From Platanthera guangdongensis (lineage: Eukaryota > Streptophyta > Magnoliopsida > Asparagales > Orchidaceae): DNA of 64,000 bases. The position numbers were made by a program, and so were the translations under genes. This document shows positions 5,070 through 57,825 of this stretch, in pieces. The first letter of the stretch is position 1. Each line of letters opens with the position of its first letter. Under the pieces are notes generated by a model. It saw only the letters and a program-made list of their open reading frames with translations. It had not been told where the DNA came from and searched no databases. The stretch lies in assembly GCA_039583875.1 (NCBI GenBank), contig CM077159.1, forward strand, positions 105,673,295 through 105,737,294, written 5' to 3'.

Positions 5070-5352
5070 TGATGAGTCCGATTTATATTGGGTTTTTCGA
5101 ACTCATCTGGGCTAGTTTTCACACGTTTGCACTTCACGTTTAGTTCGTTATCATATATATGTCATCTTATCTTTATTTCCATAGCAAGTGCACACTTACG
5201 CCTGTGGTTATGTATTTTTGTACTTTTATTGTTTGTACTCCCTTTTTGTGATTGTCTGGAATGTCTGCACATATCAGTGCTGGGTTTAGGGGTTATGTGC
5301 ATGTTCCGGGGACGTTTGGAAGCAGGAATACTGCGCACGCTCATTAAATATA

Positions 5353-5590
5353 GTGCGCACGACCACTGGTCGTGCGCCACTGCTCGTGCGCAATGTTCCC
5401 TGATTTCCAGAATCTGCCTGGGGTATGCGCACTATCACTGGACACAGTGCGCACGACCACTGGTCATGCGCCACAGATCGTGTGCATTGATTCCATTTTC
5501 TTCCAAATTCTGGCTGGGGAAAACGCACTACCACTGGACATAGTGCGCACGACCACTGGTCGTGCGCCACTGGTCCTGTGCATTATAATT
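5353..5590 (+). repeat. About 95-bp tandem repeats with a perfect palindromic core in U3
   Basis: Units start at 5353, 5447 and 5543 (spacing 94 and 96 bp). Each opens with GCGCACGACC-ACT-GGTCGTGCGC or a near form, giving 10-bp arms around a 3-nt loop, and continues into a 'ctggggNatgcgcact' segment. The array ends about 10-20 bp before the TATA box at 5600, so it lies in the U3 promoter. Confidence 0.85.
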
Positions 5591-9944: not shown

Positions 9945-11468
9945 TGAAAGAGCAGGTTAGACCTGATATACTCTAGAGGGGGGTGAATAGAGTATGGTGC
10001 TTGCTAAAAATGTTTTACAACAGTTGTTGTATTCCTAAGTGAACATGGAAGCAAATGAAATAAAGTAAACACAACAACTATCTAAACAAAAAGCAATCAC
10101 AAACCACAGCCAGAAAACAAAAAAAAGTAAGCAACCAGATGACACAAGGAGCTATAGTGGTTCCCCAATCAATCTGGGTACATCCACTCTTCTACTACCC
10201 TAGGTAGGAATCCACTGTAGGATAAGTTGATCAGGTGTCCTGGGCACCAATGAGCTTTTGATAAGGTGCTCAAAAACCAAACCAGATTTTTTGATCAGGT
10301 GTCTTGCCACCACAGAGTTTTGACAAGGTATTAGAAACCAACACAAACTTTTGAAGGGAGTTTGATAAACCCTTTACATCAGAGATAGAGAGAGGGGAAT
10401 GAGATGAACTTCTCTGTCAACAATCAGAGAGAAGATAGTGGATGTTGTCAAAGCTCCCCCTGAGATCTTGAGTTGTTCAGGAAGTGAAGCTTTGCACTAG
10501 GGTGATAGGCCTTCAGAAAATTTGATCTCCAGCAAAAGATGATTTCAGAAGCAGCTGAAATGTGTGTTCTCTGGAGTCTTGAATGATGATGGTCTTTGAA
10601 CACTGGAATCAAAAGAGATCTGAAAATTTCAGTATGTTGATCTCCTTTTGTGATGTGTGTTCTTGTATGAGTTCTAAGACTGTGAATATCTGCAGCTCTT
10701 TTTCTTGTTGTTATTCACTTGTTGATGATGTTCTTCTGTGTTATTCTATTTCAACAGAATATGAATATCTCTTTTATTCCTTAGATCTGAATGAATATTT
10801 CTCTGTCCAAGATAGCCGTTAGCCTGTCATAAATGACTTCCTTAACTGCATTTTGTCTTCTAGAGGAAAGTCCAATAAATACATTCCTTTGGAAATCCCT
10901 TAAAACTTGCTCCAGATTAATTGAAACAGCTACAAGATCCTTGACATAAATGCTGAGAATAATTCCATAACTGTCTGAATTTGAATCTTGAAAAATGTCT
11001 ATCTCTCCAGAAAAACGTCGAACTGAGCTCCACTATCATTGAACTGAGCTCAGAGACTGGACTTAGACTGAAACAGAGATCGTCGATCTGAGATCAACTA
11101 TCGTCGAACTGAGCTTAGAGATAGAGAAACAAACTGGAGACAAGAACGTCGATCTGAGCTTGAAGATCGTCGAATGGAGTTCGACGACTTGTTGAATTTG
11201 AGCTCAGAGATCGTCGAAGGAAGTTCGGCGATTTGTCGAAGTGAGCTCAGCGATCGTCGAATGGAGTTCGACGATTCGTCATACTGAGCTCGACGAAATG
11301 ACTTGGTCTCCTGAACTGAAATATCTGGTCTTGAGGGCAGCTTTCAACCTAAATACTAACCCTTAGACTCAATTCTAATTGACCTTTAGATCTATACAAG
11401 GAGGTCAAAACAGATTTCCTAAAAGACATAGTGATCCTTGCCCAAATCAGTAATAAGGTGTTCTAATA
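9945..11468 (-). repeat. copia-B LTR (left copy)
   Basis: On the plus strand it starts TGAAAGAGCAGG and ends GTTCTAATA; on the element strand TGTTGG-like start and ...CTCTTTCA end. Matches 19393-20921 and, more distantly, 56204-57825. It is followed by Athila-like DNA where copia internal DNA is expected. Confidence 0.85.
11005..11300 (-). repeat. TCGTCGAA/TTCGACGA palindrome array in copia-B U3 (left LTR)
   Basis: Tight cluster of 'gtcgaNNtgagctc' words and palindromes. The best is ATCGTCGAA-TGGAG-TTCGACGAT at 11253-11275 (9-bp perfect arms). In the right LTR the array is at 20456-20752 with perfect examples at 20662-20684 and 20705-20727. Confidence 0.85.
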
Positions 11469-19392: not shown

Positions 19393-20921
19393 TGAAAGAG
19401 CAGGTTAGATCTGATATACTCTAAAGGGTGGGGGGTGAATAGAGTGTGGTGCTTGCTAAAAACTTTTTACAACAGTTGTTGTATTCTTAAGTGAATAGGG
19501 AAGCAAATGAAATAAAGTAAACACAGCAACTATTTAAACAAAAAGCAATCACAAATCACAGCCAGAAAACAAAAGAAAGTAAGCAACCAGATGACACAAA
19601 GAGCTATAGTGGTTCCCCAATCAATCTGGTGACATCCACTCTTCTACCACCCTAGGTAGGAATCCACTGCAGGATGAGTTGATCAGGTGTCCTGGGAACC
19701 AATGAGGTTTTGATAAGGTGCTCAAAAACTAAACTAGATTTTTTGATCTGGTGTCTTGCCATCACTGAGTTTTGACAAGGCCTCAGAAACTAACACAAAC
19801 GTTTGAAGGGAGTTTGATAAACCCTTTACAATAGAGATAGAGAGAGAGGGATGAGATGATCTTCTCTGTCAACAATCAGAGAGAAGAGAGTGGATGTTGT
19901 CAAACCTCCCCCTGAGATCTTGAGTTGTTCAAGAAGTGAAGCTTTGCAGTAGGGTGATAGGCCTTCAGAAAATTTGATCTCCAGCAAAAGATGATTTCAG
20001 CAGCAGCTGAAATGTGTGTTGTCTAGAGTCTTGAATGATGATGGCCTTTGAACACTAGAATCAAATGGGATCTGAAAATTTCATTATGTTGATCTCCTTT
20101 TGTGATGTGTGTTCTTGTATGAGTTCTAAGACCGTGAATATCTGCAGCTCTTTTTCTTGTTGTTATTCACTTGTTGATGATGTTCTTCTGTGTTATTCTA
20201 TTCAAGCAGAATATGAATATCACTTTTATTCCTTAGATCTGAAAGAATATTTCTCTGTCCAAGATAGCTGTTAGCCTGTCATAAATGACTTCCTTAACTG
20301 CATTTTGTCTTCTGAAGGAAAGTTCAATAAAAACATTCCTTTGAAAATCACTTGAAACTTTCTCCAGATTAATTGAAATAGCTACAAGATCCTTGACATA
20401 AATGCTGAGAATAATTCCATAACTGTCTGGATTTGAATCTTGAAAAATGTCTATCTCTCCAGAAAAATGTCAAACTGAGCTCCACTATCGTTGAACTGAG
20501 CTCAGAGACTGGACTTAGACTGAAACAGAGATCGTTGATCTGAGCTCAACTATCGTCGAACTGAGCTCAGAGATAGAGAAACAAAGTGGAGACAAGAACG
20601 TCGATCTGAGCTCGAAGATCGTCGAATGGAGTTCGACGACTTATTGAAGTTGAGATCAGAGATCGTCGAATGGAGTTCGACGATTCGTCGAAGTGAGCTC
20701 AGCGATCGTCGAATGGAGTTCGACGATTCATCGTACTGAGCTCGACGAAATGACTTGGTCTCCTGAACTGAAATATCTGGTCTTGAGGGCAGCTTTCAAA
20801 CCTAAATACTAACCCTTAGACTCAATTCTAATTGACCTTTAGATCTATACAAGGAGGTCAAAACAGATTTCCTAAAAGACATAGTGATCCTTTCCCAAAT
20901 CAGTAATAGGGTATTCCAACA
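19393..20921 (-). repeat. copia-B 5' LTR
   Basis: 1529 bp, next to the PBS. U3 palindrome array at 20456-20752. Its right flank GAAAC is the target duplication. Confidence 0.9.
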
Positions 20922-28938: not shown

Positions 28939-30373
28939 TGATGAGTCCGATTTATATAGGGTTTTTCGAACTTATATGGTCTAGTTTTCACACGTTTGCA
29001 CTTCACTTGTAATTCGTTATCGTATATATTTCATCTTATCTTTATTTCCATAGGAAGTGCACACTTACGCCTATGGTTATGTATTTTTGTACTTTTATTG
29101 TTTGTACTCCCTTTTTGTGATTGCCTGGAATGTCTGCACATATCAGTGCTGGGTTTAGGGGTTGTGTGCATGTTTCGGGGACGTTTGGAAGCAGGAATAC
29201 TACGCATGCTCATTAGATATAGTGCACACGACCACTGGTCGTGCGCCACTGCTCGTGCGCAATGTTCCCTGATTTCCAGAATCTGCTTGGGGTATGCGCA
29301 CTATCACTGGACACAGTGCGCACGACCACTGGTCATGCGCCACTGATTGTGTGCATTGATTCCATTTTCTTCCAAATTCTGGCTGGGGAAAACGCACTAC
29401 CACTGGATATAGTGCGCACGACCACTGGTCGTGCACTACTGGTCGTGTGCGTTATAATTTCTGCAATCTATAAATTCGCAGGTTCCGCCCAAATTCAGCA
29501 TCACTCGACATTTCTCCGCCGTTTTTCTTCATCTTCCACCCTAGGGAGGTGCTCCGGCCAAGCGTTCACCGCCAAATCCAAGCCGGAGCTTTCTCTCGGC
29601 CTTCTCCTTCATCCGTGAGCTTCAACTAGGGTTTGACTCCATCGCCAACAAGCAAAGGAAAGCTTGCAACTTTCTTCCGTAATCGTGACATGAAGAAGAC
29701 GGGCCATTGGAAGGTGGTGACAGCCCTTCTCTACCCCGGACGCAGTTGAGGACCGAGCTTGGACCCGGATTGACAACCCGACGATTCCAACCATGAATCC
29801 TCAGCAAGACTTCGGATTCGGTCGATCTTTTGACTTGTTCTTGTTTTCTTGTTGAATATTGGTGTTTGAATCTATTTATATTGATGATGTGCACTTTGGT
29901 TGTATATGTTATGTGGTTCATGTCTATGTGATTCCTATTTCATTTTACTGCTTAAGTTGCTTGAGTTGCGCCCGCGTATCCATCCATCCACCCTTGCCAC
30001 ACTAGTAATTGCTAGTGGCGTGCGTAGTGAAGAGGTGCTTACGACCCTCATTCCGCCATTCTCACCACCTCATCCGCAAGCCTACTCGTCCATCCGCCCA
30101 ACGATTCGGTGGATAATGGCCCGACTAGTCTTCCATCCCGCATGGCGAAGCATCGCATAACGGCGTTGCATAGAAGTAGTTGATAGTGTTTTATTTTCTT
30201 TGTCCGCAATATCAAAACCCCCATCGTTACCTCCGACCTTGAGGACTTCAATCTCAAGTCCTCCTAGAAATTAACTTCACCTTACTGTGTTCCTTGAGAG
30301 ATCAATACTTGAGAAAACTCGCCCTTTTTATATTACTTATGCGACCGGTTCACTACCGTGATCTTACGCATCA
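28939..30373 (+). repeat. Athila-like 3' LTR
   Basis: 1435 bp, TGATGAGTCC...CTTACGCATCA, right flank TTACC. Includes the 95-bp palindromic repeats (units at 29222, 29316, 29412) and TATAAAT at 29469-29475. Confidence 0.9.
29222..29460 (+). repeat. 95-bp palindromic repeats in U3, 3' LTR copy
   Basis: Same spacing (94 and 96 bp) and core as 5353-5590. The first unit has CACAC in place of CGCAC and the third has a few changes that weaken the outer pairs. Confidence 0.85.
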
Positions 30374-30660: not shown

Positions 30661-32058
30661 TCATGAATCCTTGTTCAGCATGCCCAATTATGTTTTGAAG
30701 AGCGAGAACTTGGCCTCGTCCAGCGGCTTCGTAAAAATATCTTCGGCCTGCTTATCCATCGGGACATAGCTGTGGGTTATATCCTTGTTCTCCACATGCT
30801 CTCGGATGAAGTGATCAGATTTTAATGTGTTTTGTCCGGCTGTGAGAGACTAGATTATGCGCGATTGCGATTGCGCTGGATGTGTCGCAATACATTGGAA
30901 TTTTTCTGAACTTTAGGTTGTAGTTTTCGAGTTTATTCCTGATCCATAGAAGCTGTGCACAATAACTATCGACAGAGATATACTCTGACTCGACAGTAGA
31001 GGTTGTCATACAATTCTGCCTCTTACTGCTCCATGAAATAAGCCATCTTCGGAGGAATTGGCACGTCCCGAAAGTGCTTTTCCTATCATCCCTACTTCCT
31101 ACAAAGTCTACATCTGAAAAACCAATTAGCTCGACATCATTATTTCTCGGGTACCATAGGCCAAGGTTTGGTGTACCCTTAAGTTATCTTAAAATCCGCT
31201 TTGCGGCGACGTAACGAGACTCCTTTGAGTTTACTTGAAATTTAGCGTAGATGCATGTTGAGAACATTATGTCTGGTCTACTTGCAGTAAGGTAGAGCAA
31301 GGATGCAATTATACTTATGTACTTGGTTTCATCAAATGGTTTCCCTTTCTCATCCTTATCCAGAGACATAGTTGAACCCATTGGAGTCCTTATGTTGGTT
31401 GCGTTCTCCATTCCGAATTTCTTTAGTAACTCCTTGGTGAACTCTGTCTGAGAGATGAAAATTTGATCTTCAGATTGCTTCACCTGAATTCCTAAGAAAT
31501 ACTTTAGCTCTCCCATACTGCTCATTTCAAACTTCCCTTGCATAAGATTGGAAAACTTCTTGCAAAGGTTGTCTTCCATAGAGCCAAATATAATGTCGTC
31601 GACATAGATTTGCACTAGCAGAATCTTGTCTTTTACTTCCCTAAGAAATAATGTCTTGCCTATCTTTCCTCTTGTGAACTTGTTCTCAAGAAGAAATCTA
31701 GACAACATCTCATATCAAGCTCGTGGAGCTTGCTTTAAGCTGTAAAGAGCTTTATTTAAAAACTAAACATGTTCAGGGAAAGTAGAATTTACAAAACCTG
31801 GGGGTTGCACTACGTATACTTCCTCTTTCAGATTCCTGTTGAGGAATGCTGACTTTATGTCCATTTGATAGACCGCGAAAACTTTGAGGAAAGCATACAC
31901 AAGAAACAACCTGATCTCCTTGAGCCTAGCCAGTGGAGCAAAGGTCTGGTTGAAGTCGATTCCTTCTTCTTGTCTATAGCCTTGAGCTGCAAGCCAGACT
32001 TTGTTCTTTATGATTACGCCATTCTTGTTCAACTTGTTTCTGAAAACCAACTTGGTGC
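30661..32058 (-). pseudogene. copia-X RT and RNase H
   Basis: Minus strand from the gypsy-G junction: RT start [35 protein letters not shown], then [13 protein letters not shown] (YVDD at about 31606-31595), [13 protein letters not shown], RNase H with MTTSTVESEY and SRTKHIKI, and EDIFTKPLDEAKF before a TGA at 30661-30663. In-frame stops break it near 31763, 31708 and 31184. The gypsy-G insertion falls in a G-T-K codon run upstream of VFRNKL; the other side of the same run is at 42716. Confidence 0.85.
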
Positions 32059-34666
32059 TGTCACAACCCGCATTTCCTCAACAAGTACATCGTATCAGAG
32101 CAAGAGGAACTACGGGTTATGATGCCACGTCGTGCAGGGGATAACTGCACATGCTCAGGCAACCCTTGACGCTTACTTTATGAGTTGAAATCCAGTAGTT
32201 AAATGCAAGAAAACCTTTTAGTTGAATGGCCGTATCTCTCGGCCTTAGGCATCAAAATGTGTGTTTGTACGCGGCCGAAACACTTTGTTTACTTATGACG
32301 ATCTCCTATATGCAGTCTATATTGATACTACTATAAGAAATCATCTTTGTTTACGTCCTCTGGAAAATATGTATTCGGTGACCAAAACATGTTATGCATG
32401 GATAGACTAATAGTTTTGTTTAGCTTAAAAATACCTAATGCAACCTACCATAAAGTCTTCCCAAGAGCAAGTAGACATCATCTTAGCCAAATGAGTCACA
32501 TTAGCAGTCTAGCATTCATATATATATCACAAGTAAGGAAAGCCACCAATGGGCGCCAACAAGCTGACACGAACCCATTGGGGCACATGTATGTCTGTAC
32601 AACAAAGAAAAGAACTACATCGCTAAGTAAGCTCGGCTAGCTCCAAATACACTCGATCCAAGCACTAGCCGCTCAACCGGCTACAACCTGCACCTGAGGC
32701 ATTCAAGAAAGAACACCTCAGCAATCATCAAAGCTACACAATATAGTAGGAAGTTCAGAAAATATGACGAAGGGGCTTACCGACCCCGTAGCAATGCTTC
32801 ATGTAAGTATAATGAGTGAACAAAAACAGGTGGAAAACAAGTGGTAAACACTGTCAAGTCAAAGTGCCAAACGCACCAAGTGCGTGCAATTTTCATCAAG
32901 TCCTGCTCTATCCGCAGGAGCAAAAAAGCAAAACGCATGCTCATTCCATCATCCTTAGTACAAGAAACCACTATACGAATGAAACATAAGAAGCGGTTAA
33001 ATGCGATTCAGCAAGGGTCTTTTGGTGGCAGCCCTAAAGTGGAACGCACCAATAAAAGCCAGCTCAAATCGGGCCAAAATGGTGCTCTACACCACAAATC
33101 CAAACCCAGTGGCCACAAAGGCTTACACCACACCACCCCTTACCGACTCCTCACACAAACGCTCCTGTCATGGTTCACAATTCGCCTCGCAAAACTCACC
33201 ATAAACGAACCTATGCTTAACACCATAAGCAAATCGCACCACAACCCAAGTACACACGTTCCCTTCCTTCATCCTCACACATGACTACAAATTTCCAATG
33301 TTATGTCAAACTTGATAGAGTTTGATTAACTTAATTACATGAAAAGAATCACATGCTTTTGATCAAGGAAGAATCACATGACTAAGAAAGGCTACATGAA
33401 CATGAATCAACTTAGCTACATGAATCACATGAACAAGATAAACTACATGAATCAACCTAGAATAGAATTGATAACTAAACAAAAAGAAGCATGGAAAATC
33501 GAATTCATTGAGCATAGGGAAATTCAAAAGCATCATAAGGCTAGTGAGGGATAACACAAAACAAGAAGAACAAACTAGGAACATTGAAAGAGGAAAACTA
33601 GCTATTTTGCACAATCAAAGAACAAGAAATAAGATTGGCAAGGGTGAAGAACATCGCTTGCCTGAACCGAGACGACGCCGCGACGGCTGCTCCTCTCTTT
33701 CCTTGCCTTGCTTTAGCCTTGCTCCCTTGAGTTCCTTTTGGAATGAGGAAGAAGATGAAGAAGAAGGTGAAATGAGGAGGATACATCTCTGTTTTCGGCC
33801 TTATTTCCTCCAGAACAGAGCTGGACCGTTAGATGCAGAATCAGGGAAATGAACGGCACAAAAAAATTGGAAACAATCGATTTTCGGCCCTATCACGCCC
33901 TGTATCACGCCCGTGTCACAGGGCGTGTACCTTAAGCGGCGTAGAAAGTCGGCAAATCCAAGTTTATCCACACGGTACACGGCCGGGTACACGGCCGTGA
34001 CGGGTCGGTCACGCCCGTGACATAGGGCGTGTAACCCGTGTCTCGACACCTTGTCGACCAAAAGTGTCGACACTCGACAAAGCTTGACACGCCCTGTAAC
34101 ACGCCCGTGTGACAAGCCGTGTCCCCTCTCTCGACACCCGACCCTCGACACTCGACACTCGACACTCGACACTCGACACTCGACACTACGGGACACGGCC
34201 CGTGACACGCCCGTGTCACGGGGCGTGTACCCCATTCGTCGAGCTCAACTCGACGCAAGAAAAATTCGTCGAGTCAAGGAGGTCACGCCCAGGTCACGCC
34301 CTGGGTCACGCCCCGACATGCCCGTGTCGGGGGGCCTGTCACGCACAAAAACGACCATTTTCCCCTGTTTTGAAAAGTGTTTTTGTGTCGTCCTAGACCG
34401 TTTTTGCCTTAAGAACTTTTTACCCTTTTTTTGTTTTCTGTACAAGCAACCCATTTTGAGCAACATTACCCGGGCGCGAAAAAGTGCAAACATTCCCTAA
34501 GAGGCCTCACCGAGTCCCCATTTTGCACTCCGGTTTGGTGGGGAATCGTGCAACTCGGATACCAAAACAGCCACTTGCAAGCCTGCAGGAAAACCATGCT
34601 CGAACAACGGTCAAAGCCAACGTAACGCCCATCAAGCGTACGCAATCCAAAATCCGGGGTGTTACA
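32059..34666 (-). repeat. gypsy-G 3' LTR
   Basis: Plus strand TGTCACAACCC...GGGGTGTTACA. The ORFs inside it are chance frames. Contains the palindrome-rich block at 33890-34330. Confidence 0.95.
33890..34330 (-). repeat. Palindromes and (TCGACAC)n in gypsy-G U3
   Basis: Many GTCACGCCC/GGGCGTGT inverted words, for example CACGCCC-gtgtcaca-GGGCGTG at 33906-33927. A 7-bp microsatellite TCGACAC of about seven units lies at about 34137-34190. ATTCGTCGAG-CTCAA-CTCGACG is at about 34236-34257. The counterpart in the 5' LTR is 41940-42380. Confidence 0.8.
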
Positions 34667-40105: not shown

Positions 40106-40107
40106 AC

Positions 40108-42715
40108 TGTCACAACCCGCATTTCCTCAACGAGTACATCGTATCAGAGTAAGAGGAACTACGGGTTATGATGCCACGTCGTGCAGGGGATAACTGCACA
40201 CGCTCAGGCAACCCTTGACGCTTACTTTATGCGTTGAAATCCAGCAGTTAAATGCAAGAAAACCTTTTAGTTGAATGGCCGTATCCCTCGGCCTTAGGCA
40301 TCAAAATGTGTATTTGTACGCGGCGGAAACACTTTGTTTACTTATGACAATCTCCTATATGCAGTCTATATTGATACTACTATAAGAAATCATCTTTGTT
40401 TACGTCCTCTGGAAAATACGTGTTCGGTGACCAAAACATGTTATGCATGGATACACTAATAGTTTTGTTTAGCTTAAAAATACCTAATGCAACCTACCAT
40501 AAAGTCTTCCCAAGAGCAAGTAGACATCATCTTAGCCAAATGAGTCACATTAGCAGTCTAGCATTCATATATATAGCACAAGTAAGGAAAGCCACCAATG
40601 GGTGCCAACAAGCTGACACGAACCCATTGGGGCACATGTATGTCTGTACAACAAAGAAAAGAACTACCTCGCTAAGTAAGCTCGGGTAGCTCCAAATACA
40701 CTCGATCCAAGCACTAGCCGCTCAACCGGCTACAACCTGCACCTGAGGCATTCAAGAAAGAACACCTCAGCAATCATCAAAGCTACACAATATAGTAGGA
40801 AGTTCAGAAAATATGACGAAGGGGCTTTCCTACCCCGTAGCAATGCTTCATGTATGTATAATGAGTGAACAAAAACAGGTGGAAAACAAGTGGTAAACAC
40901 TGTCAAGCCAAAGTGCCAAACGCACCAAGTGCGTACAATTTTCATCAAGTCCTGCTCAATACGCAGGAGCAAAAAGGCAAAACGCATGCCCATTCCATCA
41001 TCCTTAGTACAAGAAACCACTATACGAATGAAACATAAGCAGCAGTTAAATGAGATTCAGCAAGGGTCTTTTGGTGGCAGCCCTAAAGTGGAACGCACTA
41101 ATAAAAGCCAGCTCAAATCGGGCCAAAATGGTGCTCTACACCACAAATCCAAACCTGGTGGCAACAAAGGCTTACACCACACCACCCCTTACCGACTCCT
41201 CACACAAATGCTCCTGCCATGGTTCACAATTCGCCTCGCAAAACTCACCATAAACGAACCTAAGCTTAACACCATAAGCAAATCGCACCACAACCCAAGT
41301 ACACACGTTCCCTTCCTTCATCCTCACACATGACTACAAATTGCCAACGTTATGTCAAACTTGATAGAGTTTGATTAACTTAATTACATGAAAATAATCA
41401 CATGCTTTTGATCAAGGAAGAATCACATGACAAAGAAAGGCTACATGAACATGAATCAACTTAGCTACATGAATCACATGAACAAGATAAACTACATGAA
41501 TCAACCTAGCATAGACTTGATAACTAAACAAAACGAAGCATGGAAAATCGAATTCATTGAGCATAGGGAAATTCAAAAGCATCATAAGGCTAGTGAGGGA
41601 TAACACAAAACAAGAAGAACAAACTAGGAACATTGAAAGAGGAAAACTAGCTATTTTGCACAATCAAAGAACAAGAAATAAGATTGGCAAGGGTGAAGAA
41701 CACCGCTTGCCTGAACCGAGACGACGCCGCGACGGCTGCTCCTCTCTTTCCTTGCCTTGCTTTAGCCTTGCTCCCTTGAGTTACTTTTGGAATGAGGAAG
41801 AAGATGAAGAAGAAGGTGAAATGAGGATGATACATCTCTGTTTTCGGCCTTATTTCCTCCAGAACAGAGCTGGACCGTTAGATGTAGAATCAGGGAAATG
41901 AACGGCACAAAAAAACAGGAAAAAATCGATTTTCGGCCCTGTCATGCCCTGTATCACGCCCGTGTCACAGGGCGTGTAAATTAAGCGGCGCAGAAAGTCG
42001 GCAAATCCAAGTTTATCCACACGGTACACGGCCGGGTACACGCCCGTGACGGGTCGGTCACGCCCGTGACCTAGGGCGTGTAGCCCGTGTCTCGACACCT
42101 CGTCGACCAAAAGTGTCGACACTCGACAAAGCTTGACACGCCCTGTGACACGCCCGTGTCACAGGCCGTGTCCCCTCTCTCGACACCCGACACTCGACAC
42201 TCGACACTCAACACTCGACACTCGACACTCGACACTGAGGGACACAGCCCGTGACACGCCCGTGTCACGGGGTGTGTACCCCATTCGTCGAGCTCAACTC
42301 GACGCAAGAAAAATTCGTCGAGTCAAGGAGGTCACGCCCAGGTCACGCCCTGGGTCACGCCCCGACACGCCCGTGTCGGGGGGCGTGTCACGCACAAAAC
42401 CGACCATTTTTCCCTATTTTGAAAAGTGTTTCTATGTCATCCTAGACCATTTTTTCCTTAAGAACTTTTTACCCTTTTTTTGTTTTCTGTACAAGCAACC
42501 CATTTTGAGCAACATTACCCGGGCGCGAAAAAGTGCAAACATTCCCTAAGAGGCCTCACCGAGTCCCCATTTTGGACTCCGGTTTGCTGGGGAATCGTGC
42601 AACTCGCCTACCAAAATAGCCACTCGCAAGCCCGCGGGAAAACCATGCTCGAACAACGGTCAAAGCTAACGTAACGCCCATCAAGCGTACGCAATCAAAA
42701 ATCCGGGGTGTTACA
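40108..42715 (-). repeat. gypsy-G 5' LTR
   Basis: 2608 bp, collinear with the 3' LTR. Palindrome-rich U3 block at 41940-42380. Confidence 0.95.
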
Positions 42716-43956: not shown

Positions 43957-44156
43957 TGATGCGGGTTTAAGTTCATGCATGCAGGTTGTCCTTGACTGGA
44001 CAGATGAACAAAAAGAATAAGTTAGAAGTCAGATAATTTGACTAAGGCAAAAGCATTGAGACCGCTGAGACACTTGAGATTGCTGAGAAAAATGTTTTAG
44101 CATAACCATTGAGATAGCTGAGAAGCTCAATGCAAAGTGTTGAGAGAACTGTTGGT

Positions 44157-44365
44157 CTCAGCAAAATTGCTGAGCAGGAAATAGTCTAAGCTGTGAAGAT
44201 GGAAGTGTTGAGACAGTTGAGAAGAAACCACTGAGATAGGAGATAGTCTCAGCTGTGAAGAAGAAACCACTGAGATAACTGAGAAGAAACTGCTGAGACA
44301 GAAGATAGTCTCAGCTGTGAAGAAGAAACCGCTGAGATAGTTGAGAAGGAACTGCTGAGACAAAG
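44157..44365 (+). repeat. 62-bp tandem repeats with CTCAGC/GCTGAG stems in copia-Y U3
   Basis: Units begin at 44180, 44242 and 44304, exactly 62 bp apart. GTCTCAGC pairs with GCTGAGAC in the last two (44246-44253 with 44292-44299; 44308-44315 with 44354-44361). A compact hairpin CTCAGC-aaaatt-GCTGAG lies just before, at 44157-44174. Confidence 0.8.
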
Positions 44366-44510
44366 CCAACAAAAATTATTTAAGTCCAGAAGCGTTGAGT
44401 GAAGCAGGTTCACTCAATGCTTCTAATGAAAAGCCAAGTCACCGTGCGTTGAGTGACTTAACATCACTAACCACTTAATGAGTTCTAGAATTTTTCTAAG
44501 TTTAGAAAGT

Positions 44511-44666
44511 GATGACCACTGCTGACATCACCAGAAGTCAACAAGTCAAAGTATTTCATGTTGTTGCGGGAAAGCTACAGCAGCACCGGATGACCACTGC
44601 TGACGTCACTATAAGTCAAAAAATTCAAAGTAGTTCATGCCGTTGCGGGAAAGCTGCAGTAGCGCT
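44511..44666 (+). repeat. 78-bp duplication carrying a bZIP-type TGACGTCA site
   Basis: Units 44511-44588 and 44589-44666. The second has the perfect palindrome TGACGTCA at 44601-44608; the first has TGACATCA at 44523-44530. TGACGTCA is a known bZIP (CRE/as-1-like) core. It sits about 155 bp upstream of the TATA box. Confidence 0.75.
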
Positions 44667-44760
44667 GAAAGCTACTATTTGTCCTCTTCTGAGGGAGGTG
44701 GAGCTCACCATCCTTGGCTGGGCCCACACTCAAATTGTGCCATTGTTTCAAATCAATAGA

Positions 44761-44769
44761 TATAAAAAG
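44761..44769 (+). promoter_or_regulatory. copia-Y TATA box
   Basis: TATAAAAAG. Places the U3/R border at about 44790, so everything to the right is transcribed leader. Confidence 0.65.
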
Positions 44770-45192
44770 CAGAGATAAAAGGGGATTAGGGTTACGAAAG
44801 AAAATACGAAAAATAGAGGCGGTTGGACTTCATCTTCTACAACGAGCTTGAAAGCCAAGTCCAACAGTGCAAGCCAGCAAGGTAGAGAAAGATAGCTGAA
44901 GCTTTTCCAGTTCAGCAAGTTTATTCTTTGCAAAACAAGGTGGCTGATTCATCTAATCAGCAAGGAGAGATAGCAATGTGAAGGATCGTCAGCCTTCAAC
45001 AACAATAGTAATTCTTCAGTGCTACAGAGAAGTAGTTAGCTGTAGAAGATGACTAATTCCTTCTACAGCAAGAGAGATGGACTGATATCTGCTCAGTCCA
45101 GCAAGATAGACTCAGAGAATTATCTCAAAGTCATTGTTTTAAATTTATTTCAACTTCTTGATTAAATTCCTATAGGATTCGGGTTGTCTGAA

Positions 45193-45697
45193 TCTGAGCT
45201 GCATGTAGGGCCTTTTGTGCCTGAGTTATAGGTGAGTAATTAGTTACTGAGGTAGGTGCCCTGCTGGGGTACTAAGGTAGGAACCAAGTATGGATCTGAG
45301 AGTAGGGCTGTCCTCCCAGCCTGAGTAGTAGGGCTTAGTTCCTGAGGTATGTGACTGTTGAGTCATTGAGCTATAGGTTACAAGTGTCACTGAGTTGTAG
45401 GCCTTGTAGGAGACTGAGCTATAGGTGCCTGGAAGGGCACTGAGGTAGGTACCTGGAAGGGTACTGAGCTGTAGGAGTGTTGCAGCACTCTGAGAGTAGG
45501 GCCTTATGCCTGAAGTTGTAGGGCTGAAAAGCCTGAGCTGTAGGCCTTAGATATAAGGCTAAGGTAGGTGGTCTGTGGACCACTTAGATATAGGAGCACT
45601 GCAGGGCTCTGATGTAGGAACCTTTGTGGTTCTGAGGTAGGGTTCTAAAGAGAACCTGAGTGTAAGGCTGAAGGCCTGAGGTGTAAGCTCTGAGCAG
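45193..45697 (+). repeat. Tandem array of about 20 mini-hairpins with constant linker in the copia-Y leader
   Basis: Each unit of about 25 bp is a short stem-loop followed by a linker close to CTGAG-n-TGTAGG. Clear stems: GGCTG/CAGCC (45306-45321), TGACT/AGTCA (45352-45365), GTGCC/GGCAC (45425-45440), GTACC/GGTAC (45449-45464), GAGTG/CACTC (45475-45490), GGCT/AGCC (45522-45533), GCCTTA/TAAGGC (45544-45559), GTGGTC/GACCAC (45568-45583), GAACC/GGTTC (45618-45632), GGTTCT/AGAACC (45641-45656). Stems differ from one another but each pairs with itself. Weaker or decayed stems fill the remaining units. It lies in R/U5, between the TATA box and PBS. Confidence 0.9.
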
Positions 45698-45949
45698 CAT
45701 TTTGGAGGAGTTTGTGCCTTGTATAACATAAGTTAGAAAGGTGGGAGGAAAAGTGGATGTACCTAGTTGGGGAATCACTATAAATATCTGTGTGCTTTAC
45801 AGTGTTGCTTGTTCTTCTCTTATATTGCAGGTACTAAGGACAAGCTCTAAATCACTTTGTAAGAAAACAACAAAAAGACATAAGATATTTTAAATAACTA
45901 TTCACCCCCCTCTAGGTGATTAGCTAACCTTAAGTTAATAAATTTCAAG

Positions 45950-45961
45950 TGGTATTAGAAG
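45950..45961 (+). other. copia-Y primer binding site
   Basis: TGGTATTAGAAG; initiator-Met tRNA type with mismatches. Confidence 0.75.
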
Positions 45962-46025
45962 GAGGTTGCTTAAAAAGGATTTAACAATCTGAGTATACCT
46001 ATAATGTTAGCTATAAGACATAAGA

Positions 46026-48530
46026 TTGAGGTCTGGTGTACACTGTAAGGAACTGGGGGCCATAAAGCTTCCAATCTGTAGAAAGGAAGGCTTTGGCCTC
46101 TGGAAGGAAAGGGTTAGACTATTCATGGAAGCTGCTGACCCTAGGATATACATCACAGTTAAAGATGGACCCTTCATCCCTATGAAGACCTCAGTTCTGG
46201 ATGCCAACATCTAGACACCTAAATCTTATGATGAAATGAACAAAGATGAGCTCCTACTTGCCTCCATGGACAATAGAGCTCAAAAAATTATTATTAGTGC
46301 AATAGATGATTCAACCTTCTAAAATATGGTGCACTGCAAGACCTCTAAGGAGATATGGGACACCCTAGTTGTGTTCATGGAGGGTTCAGAGGAGGTGAGG
46401 GATGACAGAAAATCCATCCTCAACCAGCAATATGAGACCTTTAGACAAGGAAAGTTTGATGGCATTACTGAGAGCTTTGAAAGATTTTTCAGAATAGTGA
46501 ATGAATAGAGAACATATGGAAGGGTCTTCAGCACCTATAAGCTGAATGATAAATTTCTCAGGTCCCACACAAAGGATTGGGACACAATGATTTATGTCAT
46601 TAGGGAAATGGGCAAGTTAGATGTTGTCATATGAGATGCTGTCATATGAGATGCAGCTTGTTGCAAGAAAGAAAGAAGAGAAGAGCAGTAAGTCATAGGC
46701 CAAGGAGAATTCTGTGGCCTTCAAAGCTGATGCCCCAACCAGGAGTAGAAGGAAGAACTCTCCACTTAGGAAAATTGCTGAGTCAGATACTGAGAGCTCA
46801 AAGACCAGCACCTCAAACAGCCATATGTCTGATGAGGACTTTGCTGCCTTATCCAGGCAATTTCAGAAATTTATGAAGAAGGAGTATTGGAAGAACAGTA
46901 GGCCTTCCTCTTCCTAACAACATAGAAGGAAATCCTCTAAGGAGAACAATTATGCTCCTAACTCTAACAAATAAACTTCTTCTAATGTTATTTATTTCTG
47001 CTGCAGCAAACCTGGGCATATAGCTGCTGACTGCCCAACGAAGAGGAAAGAAGAAGGAGTGAAGAAGCACCACAAGAGGAAGAAGAAAGAGAATTCCCTT
47101 GTGGCCAAGAAGAAAAAGACTCGGTCTGACTCTTCCTTTGGGTCAGACAGTGAAGAAAAAGAAGCCTACATTGGGCTAATGGTTGTTGCTGAACGAGAAC
47201 CTGAAGATCCTGCTGCTAGGATAGGCGTCAGGGCCCTCTATCACATTCAGATAGTGACTCAAAGGTGGATAAAGATGAAAAAGAAGATGTTCAGTGCTAT
47301 GGATTGATGACAACAACTAATGAAGAGAGCAACCAGGATCAGCCTGGATAAGCTCAGGTAAATTCTAAATCTCAGCCTTCTATTTAAAGTCATGAGGCTA
47401 GCTCAGATTCTGAAGCTCAATCAACAAGATATGAAGGGGATTCATATTCTGAGGATGATGTTAACACTATAATTGACAAGTATGGAGAACGTCTTGAAGC
47501 ATTCAAGAAGTGCAAGCTCCTTACCAAGAGACAGGAAAAAGAGCTTCTCAGTCTTAGGAGCAAGTGTGAAGTCGAAGAAAAGGCTCTCAATGATATGGCT
47601 GCACAATCATCCAAGCTTAAGGAGATCATTGATATGCATTCTGTGGTAAGATTCTAAAATGAGAAACTTATCCAGAAACTTGAAGATGATCTCCTAAATG
47701 AGAAATTACTGGTGAACAAGTTTTCTAAGCCAAGCACTGTGCTTCCCTTAATTGACACCCTCCTTACCCAAGTAGGTAAGAAAGGGTTAGGATTTATGGG
47801 ACCTGCTAGACCTCCCAATCCAAAATGAAAGGTAAAGGGGAATGCACCAGTAGTGTCTCTAGACTTATTGCCTCAAATTTCTTTTCAGAAAGTCTTGTTG
47901 CCTTCTAACTGGTATGACCATGAAAGTTGTTATGGTCACTGGAAGAATGACAGATCCACTGGTATGGACCAATGTGGCCATAACTAAGGTGGAAGATACA
48001 ACCATGTGAGGGCCCTTAAGGCTGCCCATGAGGAAATTCAAGTGGCCAATCCTGGACCATTTGTTTTTGGTGCCATAGCCCCAAAACTCAAGGATAATGC
48101 TTCTGCAGAAAATCTGAGTCATCTAGCAAAAGAAGTGACTCAAGATGAGTCTACTTGCAAGGCTGGAATGGCAGTTTTTGATGCTATCAGATGCATGTTA
48201 GCTTAAAAAAGACATGCAACTGGTGGCTCTCAGAAAAGACCAAAACAATCAGCTGAAATACTTACTTCAGTCAAAGGGCTGCTGAAAGAAATCAGAAATA
48301 TACTGCAGAACGTCTTCCCACTATTCAGGGAGCAGTTAAGCCAAATGTTGCTCCTAAATAGAAAAGCAGGTATAATGTCCATGAGTACTGGTGTTGCGGT
48401 AAAGTGGGCCACTATGCTGCAGATTGCTAGCAAAATCCTTCAATGTCTAGAGGTAGCCAACCTATCAGGAATACTGCAGGAAGGCAAGCTTATTTTCAGA
48501 CTAATGTAAACCTAGGACCCAATAGAAATT
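46026..48530 (+). pseudogene. copia-Y gag
   Basis: Gag core with FGLWKERVRLFMEAADPRIY (46026-46214), SKEIWDTLVVFMEGSEEVRDDRKS (46326-46508) and lysine-rich segments. Two zinc-knuckle-like motifs, YFCCSKPGHIAADC (about 46990-47032) and YWCCGKVGHYAADC (about 48390-48431), both have Tyr where the first Cys is expected. A coiled-coil-like stretch lies between (47400-47720). Many stops and shifts (46214, 46322, 46508, 46632 and others) make it untranslatable as one protein. Confidence 0.8.
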
Positions 48531-56203: not shown

Positions 56204-57825
56204 TGAATGTGCAAGTTAGAACTGATATACTCTAGAGGGGGGAGGGTGAATAGAGTATGGTGCTTGCTAAAAACTTTTTACAACAGTTGTTGTATTCCTA
56301 AGTGAACAGGGAAGCAAATAATATAAAGTAAATCTAAACACAGAGCAGTCACAGATCAAACACAAAGCAATCACAAATCAAACACAAAGCAATCACAAAT
56401 CAAACACAAAGCAATCACAAACCACAGCCAGAAATAAGAGAAAGACAAGCAACCAGATGACACAAGGAGCTATAGTGGTTCCCCAATCAATCTGGGTACA
56501 TCCACTCTTCTACCGCCCTAGGTAGGAATCCACTGCAGGATGAGTTGATCAGGTGTCCTGGGCACCAATGAGCTTTTGATAAGGTGCTCAAAAACTAAAC
56601 CAGATTTTTTGATCAAGTGTCTTGCCACCACTGAGTTTTGATAAGGTCTCAGAAAACAATCACAAACTTTTGAAGGGAGTTTGAAAAACCCTTTACAGCA
56701 GAGAGAGAGAGAGAGAGAGAGAGGGATGAGATGATCTTCTCTGTCAACAATCAGAGATAAGATAGTGGATGTTGTCAAAGCTACCCCTGGGATCTATAGT
56801 TATTCAGGAAGTGAAGCTTTGCAGTAGGGTGATAGGCCTTCAGATAATTTGATCTCCAGCAAAAGATGATTTCAGCAACAGCTGAAATGTGAGGTGTCTA
56901 GAGTCTTGAATGATGATGTCCTTTGAATACTTGAATCAAGAGAGATCTGAAAATTTCAGTTAGTTGATCTCCTTTGGTGATGTGTTCTTGTCTGAATTCT
57001 TGAGACTGAGAATGTCTGCAACTCACTTTCTTTCTCTTGTGTAATTGTTATTGTAAGAGCTGTAATTCTTGTTGTTGCAGAGAATTGTTATTCTTGAAGA
57101 TATTGTTGTTGAATAATAATAATTCTTTTATTCCTTTGATCTGAATAGAATTGATCCACTGTCCAAGATAGCCGTTAGCTTGTCAATAAATGACTTCCTT
57201 AATTGCAATTTGTCTTCTGGAGGAAAGTCCAATAAAACATTCCTTGAAAATTCCTTGAAACTTTCTCCAGATTAATTAAAAACGGCTACAAGATCTCTGA
57301 ATTAAATGCTGACAATAATTCCACAGCTGTCTAAATTTGAATCTTGAAAAACGTTGAACTCTTCAGAGAAACGTCGAACTGAGCTCCACTATCGTTGAAC
57401 TGAGCTCAGAGATTGGACTTAGACAGAAACAGAGATCGTCGATCTGAGCTCAACTATTGTCGAACTGAGATCAGAGATAGAGAATCAAACTGGAGTCAAG
57501 AACATCGATCTGAGCTCGAAGATCATCGAATGGAGTTCGACGACTTGTTGAAGTTGAGCTCAGACATCGTCGAATGGAGTTCAACGATCCGTCGAAGTGA
57601 GCTCAACGATCGTCGAATGGAGTTCGACGATTCGTCGTACTGAGCTCGACGAAATAACTTAGTGTCCAAAACTGAAAAACCTGGTCTTGAGGGCAGCTTC
57701 CAAACCTAACTACTAACCCTTACACTCAATTCTAATTGACCTTTAGATCTATACAATGAGGTCAAGACAGGTTTCCTAAGAGACTTAGTGATCCTTGCCC
57801 AAATCAGTAATAGGGTGTTCCAACA
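56204..57825 (-). repeat. copia-C 3' LTR
   Basis: 1622 bp. Plus strand TGAATGTGCAAG...GGTGTTCCAACA; a CACAAA-rich minisatellite ('acaaagcaatcacaaatcaa') expands at 56339-56420 relative to copia-B. (GA)n at 56701-56724. Confidence 0.88.
57349..57652 (-). repeat. Palindrome array in copia-C U3
   Basis: Same words and order as in the copia-B LTRs; perfect ATCGTCGAA-TGGAG-TTCGACGAT at 57609-57631. Confidence 0.85.

Follow-up and report, generated by a model that had tools for sequence, protein, structure and literature searches.

Palindromic motifs are known from the LTRs of Sireviruses. Within an element they are alike (66–100% identity), nearly all have a CGG–CCG core, and they occupy the upper half of the LTR, on the upstream side of the TATA box; regulatory roles have been proposed for them (PMC2829016). 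In maize, more small RNAs are reported to map to Sirevirus palindromes (PMC10760457, citing Bousios et al. 2016). The ENE triple-helix element of Arabidopsis Copia93/Evade is located in the 3′ UTR and acts with the poly(A) tail (PMC12501189). For satellite tobacco necrosis virus 1, degenerate stem-loops have been proposed to serve in packaging (PMC6475782).

We analyzed a window of 64,000 nucleotides from the orchid Platanthera guangdongensis that contains an array of small hairpins at 45176–45676, downstream of the TATA box of an LTR at 44761. Like the Sirevirus motifs and the maize palindromes, these are LTR palindromes that are present in many copies and are able to form hairpins (PMC2829016; PMC10760457). 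Unlike the motifs described for Sireviruses (PMC2829016), each of the 11 clear stems in this array is different, they lie on the other side of the TATA box, and it is the linker that stays constant. The array resembles the ENE as an RNA structure that would serve a plant copia element, but the ENE is described as a single structure in the 3′ UTR rather than in the 5′ leader (PMC12501189). Sire and other LTR models share conserved Sirevirus LTR features and the TATA box with this locus, and the passages that present those models describe no hairpin array (PMC3601003). With the satellite virus, the likeness is to several short degenerate signals whose joint action in RNA packaging has been proposed (PMC6475782). 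A packaging role is putative for the array, which is regular and has a constant motif between its hairpins. The viral stem-loops, in contrast, are reportedly dispersed and recognized through the loop. A search of titles and abstracts, which covered the subscription literature thinly, found no published account of such an array. Judging from the sequence, we place at roughly three in four the probability that this is a sense-strand RNA structure array, under selection, in the transcribed leader of a Sirevirus-like Ty1/copia element.

Layout of the array and its LTR

Each parsed unit consists of a linker, mostly TGAG-N(0–2)-GTAGG or GTAAG, followed by an insert of 11–19 nt whose ends tend to pair. 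The array on the forward strand comprises 21 such units, where about 20 mini-hairpins had been predicted. The near-constant linker of that prediction is likewise present, although its constancy is partly built in because the units were found by the linker. When pairs are counted from the linker, 11 of the 21 units have at least four Watson–Crick pairs, and 15 do so if G·U pairs are allowed. A control in which 3′ arms were exchanged among units gave a mean of 1.15 and a maximum of 6 in 300 shuffles. At least ten perfect, all-different stems had been claimed, and no two of the 11 clear stems are identical. The predicted example of compensatory change also has the letters claimed for it: GTGCC-tggaag-GGCAC (45425–45440) and GTACC-tggaag-GGTAC (45449–45464) have their loop in common, and they are neighbors rather than orthologous units.

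Hairpins are not confined to the parsed units or to the region downstream of 45193, where the original prediction placed the start of the array. Upstream of it, between 44943 and 45100, are different hairpins with an AGCAAG-type linker. These are GCTGATT-catct-AATCAGC (44943–44961), which is followed by AGCAAG, TGAAGG-loop-CCTTCA (44979–44998) and TGGACTGA-loop-TCAGTCCA (45078–45100). The last of these stems has other letters in three diverged relatives (L009, L016 and L040) and mostly still pairs. Beyond the parsed array, an additional hairpin, GCTC-t-GAGC, was spotted by eye at 45687–45695. Further downstream, a hairpin-like element of the form AGTGG..(C)CACT occupies 45752–45783.

In the stretch that contains the array, hairpins with stems of 5 bp or more account for 48 paired positions per 500 bases (20 shuffles: mean 16.1, maximum 32). 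Eight other stretches of the 64 kb equal or exceed this one in the count of such hairpins, so the array ranks in the top nine and not first. The highest hairpin density belongs to 2.6-kb direct repeats at 32058–34666 and 40107–42715, which are 96.7% identical, start 8 kb apart and carry an array of eight CTCGACA copies. Other palindromic repeats are also present. Tandem repeats of the type TCGTCGAA..TTCGACGA at 11148–11291, 20475–20743 and 57511–57652 are three copies of another repeat family (84–95% alike), and 96-bp repeats with the palindrome GCACGACCACTGGTCGTGC form two related copies at 5350–5584 and 29216–29450.

The array lies between the TATA box (TATAAAAAG, 44761–44769) and the PBS (about 45953–45961), as had been predicted. 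Among the relatives described below, TATAWAW is found 340–419 bp upstream of the array in one family (42 hits in 53 copies of c0) and 380–419 bp upstream in another (20 hits in 34 copies of c1). Upstream of the TATA box, at 44164–44362, 3.2 copies of a 62-bp unit (82% matches) are arranged in tandem, each with a palindrome of the type GCTGAGAC..GTCTCAGC, in a position that matches that of the Sirevirus repeated motifs (PMC2829016).

The end of the LTR looks to be of the Sirevirus type, which points to a Sirevirus-like Ty1/copia element. In Sireviruses the 5′ LTR ends in CA followed by ATTGG, or by AGTGG in six elements, the PBS is TATCAGAGC, and a poly-C integrase signal is located on average 21 bp from the 3′ end of the LTR (PMC2829016). 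The window reads CA-AGTGG at 45946–45952, and TATTAGAAG follows at the place of the Sirevirus PBS, where six of nine letters match (45946–45961 overall). Its poly-C stretch, TTCACCCCCCTCTAGGTGA (45901–45919), is 28 bp from the LTR end, as for a Sirevirus-type integrase signal. The sequence TGGTAT[CT]AGAGC, with at most two substitutions, follows the array at 42 of the 94 loci and was not found at the other 52; 3′ LTR copies and short loci would be expected to lack it. Other Sirevirus characteristics are a TATA box about midway along the LTR, AGGGGGAG polypurine tracts adjoining the 3′ LTR, and a copia-type pol. Two protein fragments match Pfam Pol_BBD and SH3_retrovirus. A BLAST search of 44000–47000 against the window found no second LTR copy within the 64 kb, and a search of 44000–46500 against Rfam gave four matches at E ≤ 1, every one below the gathering score of its family. 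Since a very short R region is described for Sire (PMC3601003), the array is probably located in U5.

Pairing across an abundant family

The array characterizes a very abundant family and is not peculiar to one copy. Searching the 4.25-Gb genome for two linkers in succession, with the inserts left free, gave 33,106 matches (16,556 + 16,550), several of which may fall in one array; the reversed pattern gave 2 + 0. A BLAST search with the window array gave at least 41 matches among those listed, the best 40 of 5303 candidates being scored. In IMG/VR the only match to the linker pattern, on a viral contig, is a simple tandem repeat in which no hairpin units were parsed.

Our sample consisted of the window and 98 loci, of which 8 and 20 were chosen by similarity to the window array and 30 and 40 at places of the pattern at the start of one chromosome. 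Thus, 70 of the 98 came from the linker-only pattern with stems left free, while the places of c1 and c3 came partly by similarity. Dropping five duplicates from the 99 left 94 arrays: 53 in c0, 34 in c1 (the window type) and 7 in five small clusters. A further family, c3, consists of the locus L061 and 20 loci of its family that were added later; 20 of these 21 arrays were used, L104 being a near duplicate of L102. The number of parsed units per array ranges from 6 to 21. Eleven pairs of c0 arrays were taken as LTR pairs; the members of each share a strand, are separated by about 11 kb (6.8 kb in one case) and are 93–98% identical.

Stems occur far above chance, and the hairpin array is real. 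At least four Watson–Crick pairs are present in 672 of the 1100 units of all 94 arrays, compared with 57.2 in the arm-swap control. Relatives that lacked the array, or had stems broken as in shuffled sequence, had been named in advance as evidence against the original prediction, and these counts show neither. When arms were swapped within arrays, the same threshold was reached by 313 of 478 units in c0 (control 50.6), 322 of 556 in c1 (38.0) and 37 of 66 in the seven arrays of the small clusters (7.7); in c3, with a pooled swap, it was reached by 113 of 173 (21.5). Tandem Repeats Finder calls part of the array a 24-bp repeat, and dead copies do decay, as would be the case if this were an ordinary tandem repeat whose hairpins arise by chance or are decaying. 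The arm-swap controls for the window, the 94 arrays and c3 contradict this explanation, which we regard as extremely improbable.

Inheritance and decay of stem changes

Inner branches were compared with terminal ones on trees built without the stem columns. In c1, changes that keep or restore pairing stand to those that break it as 34:7 on inner branches and 148:180 on terminal branches (P = 4e-6). The corresponding ratios in c0 are 25:15 and 31:44 (P = 0.03). Clean double Watson–Crick changes number 9 on inner and 12 on terminal branches of c1, and 13 and 1 in c0, where some may represent unit turnover in the alignment; six double changes are shared in c3. Compensated changes are legible in GTCTTGTTGAAGAC / GCCTTGTTGAAGGC in c0 and in the unit with the UCCUCC loop. 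The latter is GGCTG-tcctcc-CAGCC in the window (45306–45321) and in c1, versus GGCTA-tcctcc-TAGCC in many copies of c3, with the loop unchanged and the last pair altered on both sides. Among distinct inserts that are two letters apart, 52 pairs differ at partner positions versus 49.3 expected, which is no excess overall; for inherited inserts the figures are 9 and 4.5.

On DNA, departures from Watson–Crick pairing of the G·U type and of the A·C type should arise equally, whereas RNA of the sense strand tolerates G·U. Changes in c1 towards G·U and towards A·C stand at 22:2 on inner branches and 117:71 on terminal ones (P = 0.003). Neither c0 (inner 5:2, terminal 28:16; P = 1.0) nor c3 (shared 14:7, private 15:10; P = 0.76) shows a significant contrast. 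With c1 and c3 pooled, the ratio is 38:37 for private and 42:14 for shared departures (P = 0.006). Inserts present in at least two elements have 19 G·U, 1 A·C and 32 other mismatches, and inserts of single elements have 114, 49 and 135. The lean towards G·U is thus already seen in single-element inserts (114:49), as it is on the terminal branches of c1. For one unit, genome-wide counts are 5209 C-G, 612 T·G and 400 C·A (T·G versus C·A, binomial P = 3e-11). Strand-biased mutation was considered as the source of the G·U excess and was rejected. Stem transitions on the inner branches of c1 are 40 towards G·U and 7 towards A·C, compared with a weaker lean of 31:21 in the flanks (P = 0.007) and of 62:39 at all non-stem sites.

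In the window family, inherited departures favor G·U on one strand, which speaks against the possibility that the stems act as DNA palindromes, for example as sites for dimeric transcription factors. Such sites would be analogous to the palindromic repeats of Sirevirus LTRs, for which regulatory roles are proposed (PMC2829016). Those motifs are alike and upstream of the TATA box, whereas the array stems differ, are downstream of it and have no shared core. We therefore consider action at the DNA level very unlikely.

We examined 27 window-type copies as a dead-copy control, leaving out 7 diverged copies of the 34. Letters that differ from the commonest one make up 4.77% of stems, 4.57% of loops and 4.66% of linkers. 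Because stems diverge as much as loops and linkers do, nothing seems to maintain them in copies already in the genome. The window copy is itself decayed: 9 of its 111 designated pairs are off the commonest state among relatives, and 6 of those 9 are unpaired. Among the 27 copies, single departures from Watson–Crick pairing that are private to one copy include 23 G·U, 27 A·C and 49 others, while those found in two or more copies include 28, 7 and 12 (G·U/A·C against private, Fisher P = 0.002). Twelve double departures were found, six of which are clean Watson–Crick changes, all private and none shared. The 11 assumed LTR pairs have 26 stem-pair differences: Watson–Crick against G·U in 9, against A·C in 6 and against another mismatch in 9, with one double change and one difference between G·U and a mismatch. 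Upkeep at the DNA level after insertion was rejected on these grounds, since dead-copy stems diverge like loops and linkers and the changes between LTR pairs are mostly one-sided.

The original prediction had offered, besides an RNA structure array for packaging, dimerization, translation or shielding, a mutational process that rewrites stems. Reverse transcriptase is able to switch templates, and template switching or quasi-palindrome correction during reverse transcription could rewrite one arm as an inverted copy of the other, with no function involved. The arms do change together, and there are clean double changes in the assumed LTR pair L010/L011 (in one stem, 1 of the 26 differences) and in the six cases private to single copies. 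Such a process would act before insertion and hence beyond the reach of the LTR-pair control. It does not predict the inherited excess of G·U over A·C (28:7 among departures and 19:1 among inserts), the concentration of C in stems or the depletion of ATG. We consider it unlikely. Pairing far above arm swaps, the inherited excess of pairing-preserving changes, the G·U lean in the window family and the ATG depletion support the RNA structure array, whereas stem rewriting is disfavored. Selection on the sense-strand RNA is preferred to a mutational process because of the neutral decay, the inherited G·U over A·C, the C in stems and the lack of ATG.

Composition, folding and possible use of the leader

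C lies mainly in the stems. Among units that have three pairs or more, it accounts for 28–31% of stem letters, 2–4% of linker letters and 4–11% of loop letters, and the stems hold 1197 of the 1353 C residues in c0 and 1390 of the 1800 in c1. Across families, 79–90% of linkers start with TGAG and 88–96% finish with GTAGG or GTAAG, figures that are partly built into the way units were found. The ratio of inner to terminal change per column is 0.31 for loops, 0.19 for stems, 0.14 for linkers and 0.16 for flanks in c1, and 1.43, 0.65, 0.63 and 0.75, respectively, in c0. The ratios of stems and linkers are lower than those of loops, yet not clearly below those of flanks, and so these rates do not demonstrate selection on the linker.

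Downstream of the TATA box, ATG is scarce. In c0 it occurs 26 times in the array (195 expected) and 38 times in the leader before the array (246 expected). The counts in c1 are 86 (194 expected) and 47 (141 expected), and the c3 array has 45 (134 expected). On the promoter side of the TATA box there is no depletion (686 with 655 expected in c0; 167 with 181 expected in c1). The same word on the other strand, CAT, is not depleted in c0 (26 in the array with 13 expected, 233 in the leader with 258 expected), and is below expectation in c1 (31 of 50 expected and 97 of 174 expected) and in the c3 array (14 of 34 expected). The window copy has nine ATGs in its leader stretch. The ATG at 45757, within the downstream hairpin-like element, is the sole ATG column of the aligned stretch that is found in more than half of the copies (50 of 53 in c0, 29 of 34 in c1). 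In the window it opens a reading frame of eight codons. We interpret the depletion as a sign that upstream start codons are selected against because the leader is scanned.

When 87 arrays were folded thermodynamically, the designated pairs had a mean probability of 0.46 in c0 and 0.61 in c1, with linkers about half paired. Natural arrays folded slightly better than arm-swapped arrays (−108.3 versus −104.6), and the natural array was lower in 27 of 40. For 45171–45697 in the window, the energy z is −3.5 (antisense, −3.3). Equilibrium folding does not clearly favor the local hairpins, which would depend on co-transcriptional folding or on proteins.

Contacts between loops were also considered. 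The UCCUCC loop of the unit at 45306–45321 looks able to pair with the GGAGG that another unit carries (relatives have GCCTTGGAGGAGGC), and several families possess both. Complementary loop pairs of 6 nt were absent from 114 arrays, with a loop parser that lets G·U pairs shorten loops. When stems were restricted to Watson–Crick pairs, 5-nt loop pairs were found in 14 of 34 c1 arrays (shuffle mean 1.9, maximum 4), mostly involving other sequences (TGCAG in 6 and CCTCC in 5 of 16). Elsewhere they were found in 0 of 53 c0 arrays, 1 of 7 in the small clusters and 2 of 20 in c3. Kissing loops were set aside and are a weak lead.

Many small hairpins would suit a leader RNA that ribosomes scan from the cap, as this one may be. 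Each hairpin is probably kept for its pairing and not its sequence, and successive hairpins would be joined by a linker of about 9–11 nt that may itself be selected. Units would be duplicated and lost, and their stems would then drift by compensated changes. One possible use, for which we have tentative preference, is that linkers held apart by hairpins form a multivalent site for a protein, most likely Gag choosing genomic RNA. A selected array could instead serve translation or RNA stability by pacing scanning, hiding starts or protecting the RNA, a reading that is plausible yet short of an even chance. A scanned leader is suggested by the scarcity of ATG beyond the TATA box, and a structure of the stability type is described in the 3′ UTR of Arabidopsis Copia93 (PMC12501189), but translation or stability alone leaves the similar linkers and the variable number of units unexplained.

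A multivalent platform for linker binding could, with due doubt, also represent a new class of retroelement cis-acting RNA. Such an element would be a modular array subject to birth and death, in which interchangeable hairpin spacers display a constant single-stranded linker, C is reserved for stems, ATG is excluded, and the stems are free to change beneath a multivalent recognition surface. If selection on the RNA is the correct explanation, then a family with this many linker-pattern matches would constitute a natural experiment on selected RNA structure, with dead copies as the neutral control. It would also offer a striking example of evolution that preserves pairing while sequence changes, and it may help to reveal how the genomic RNA of these plant copia elements is marked.
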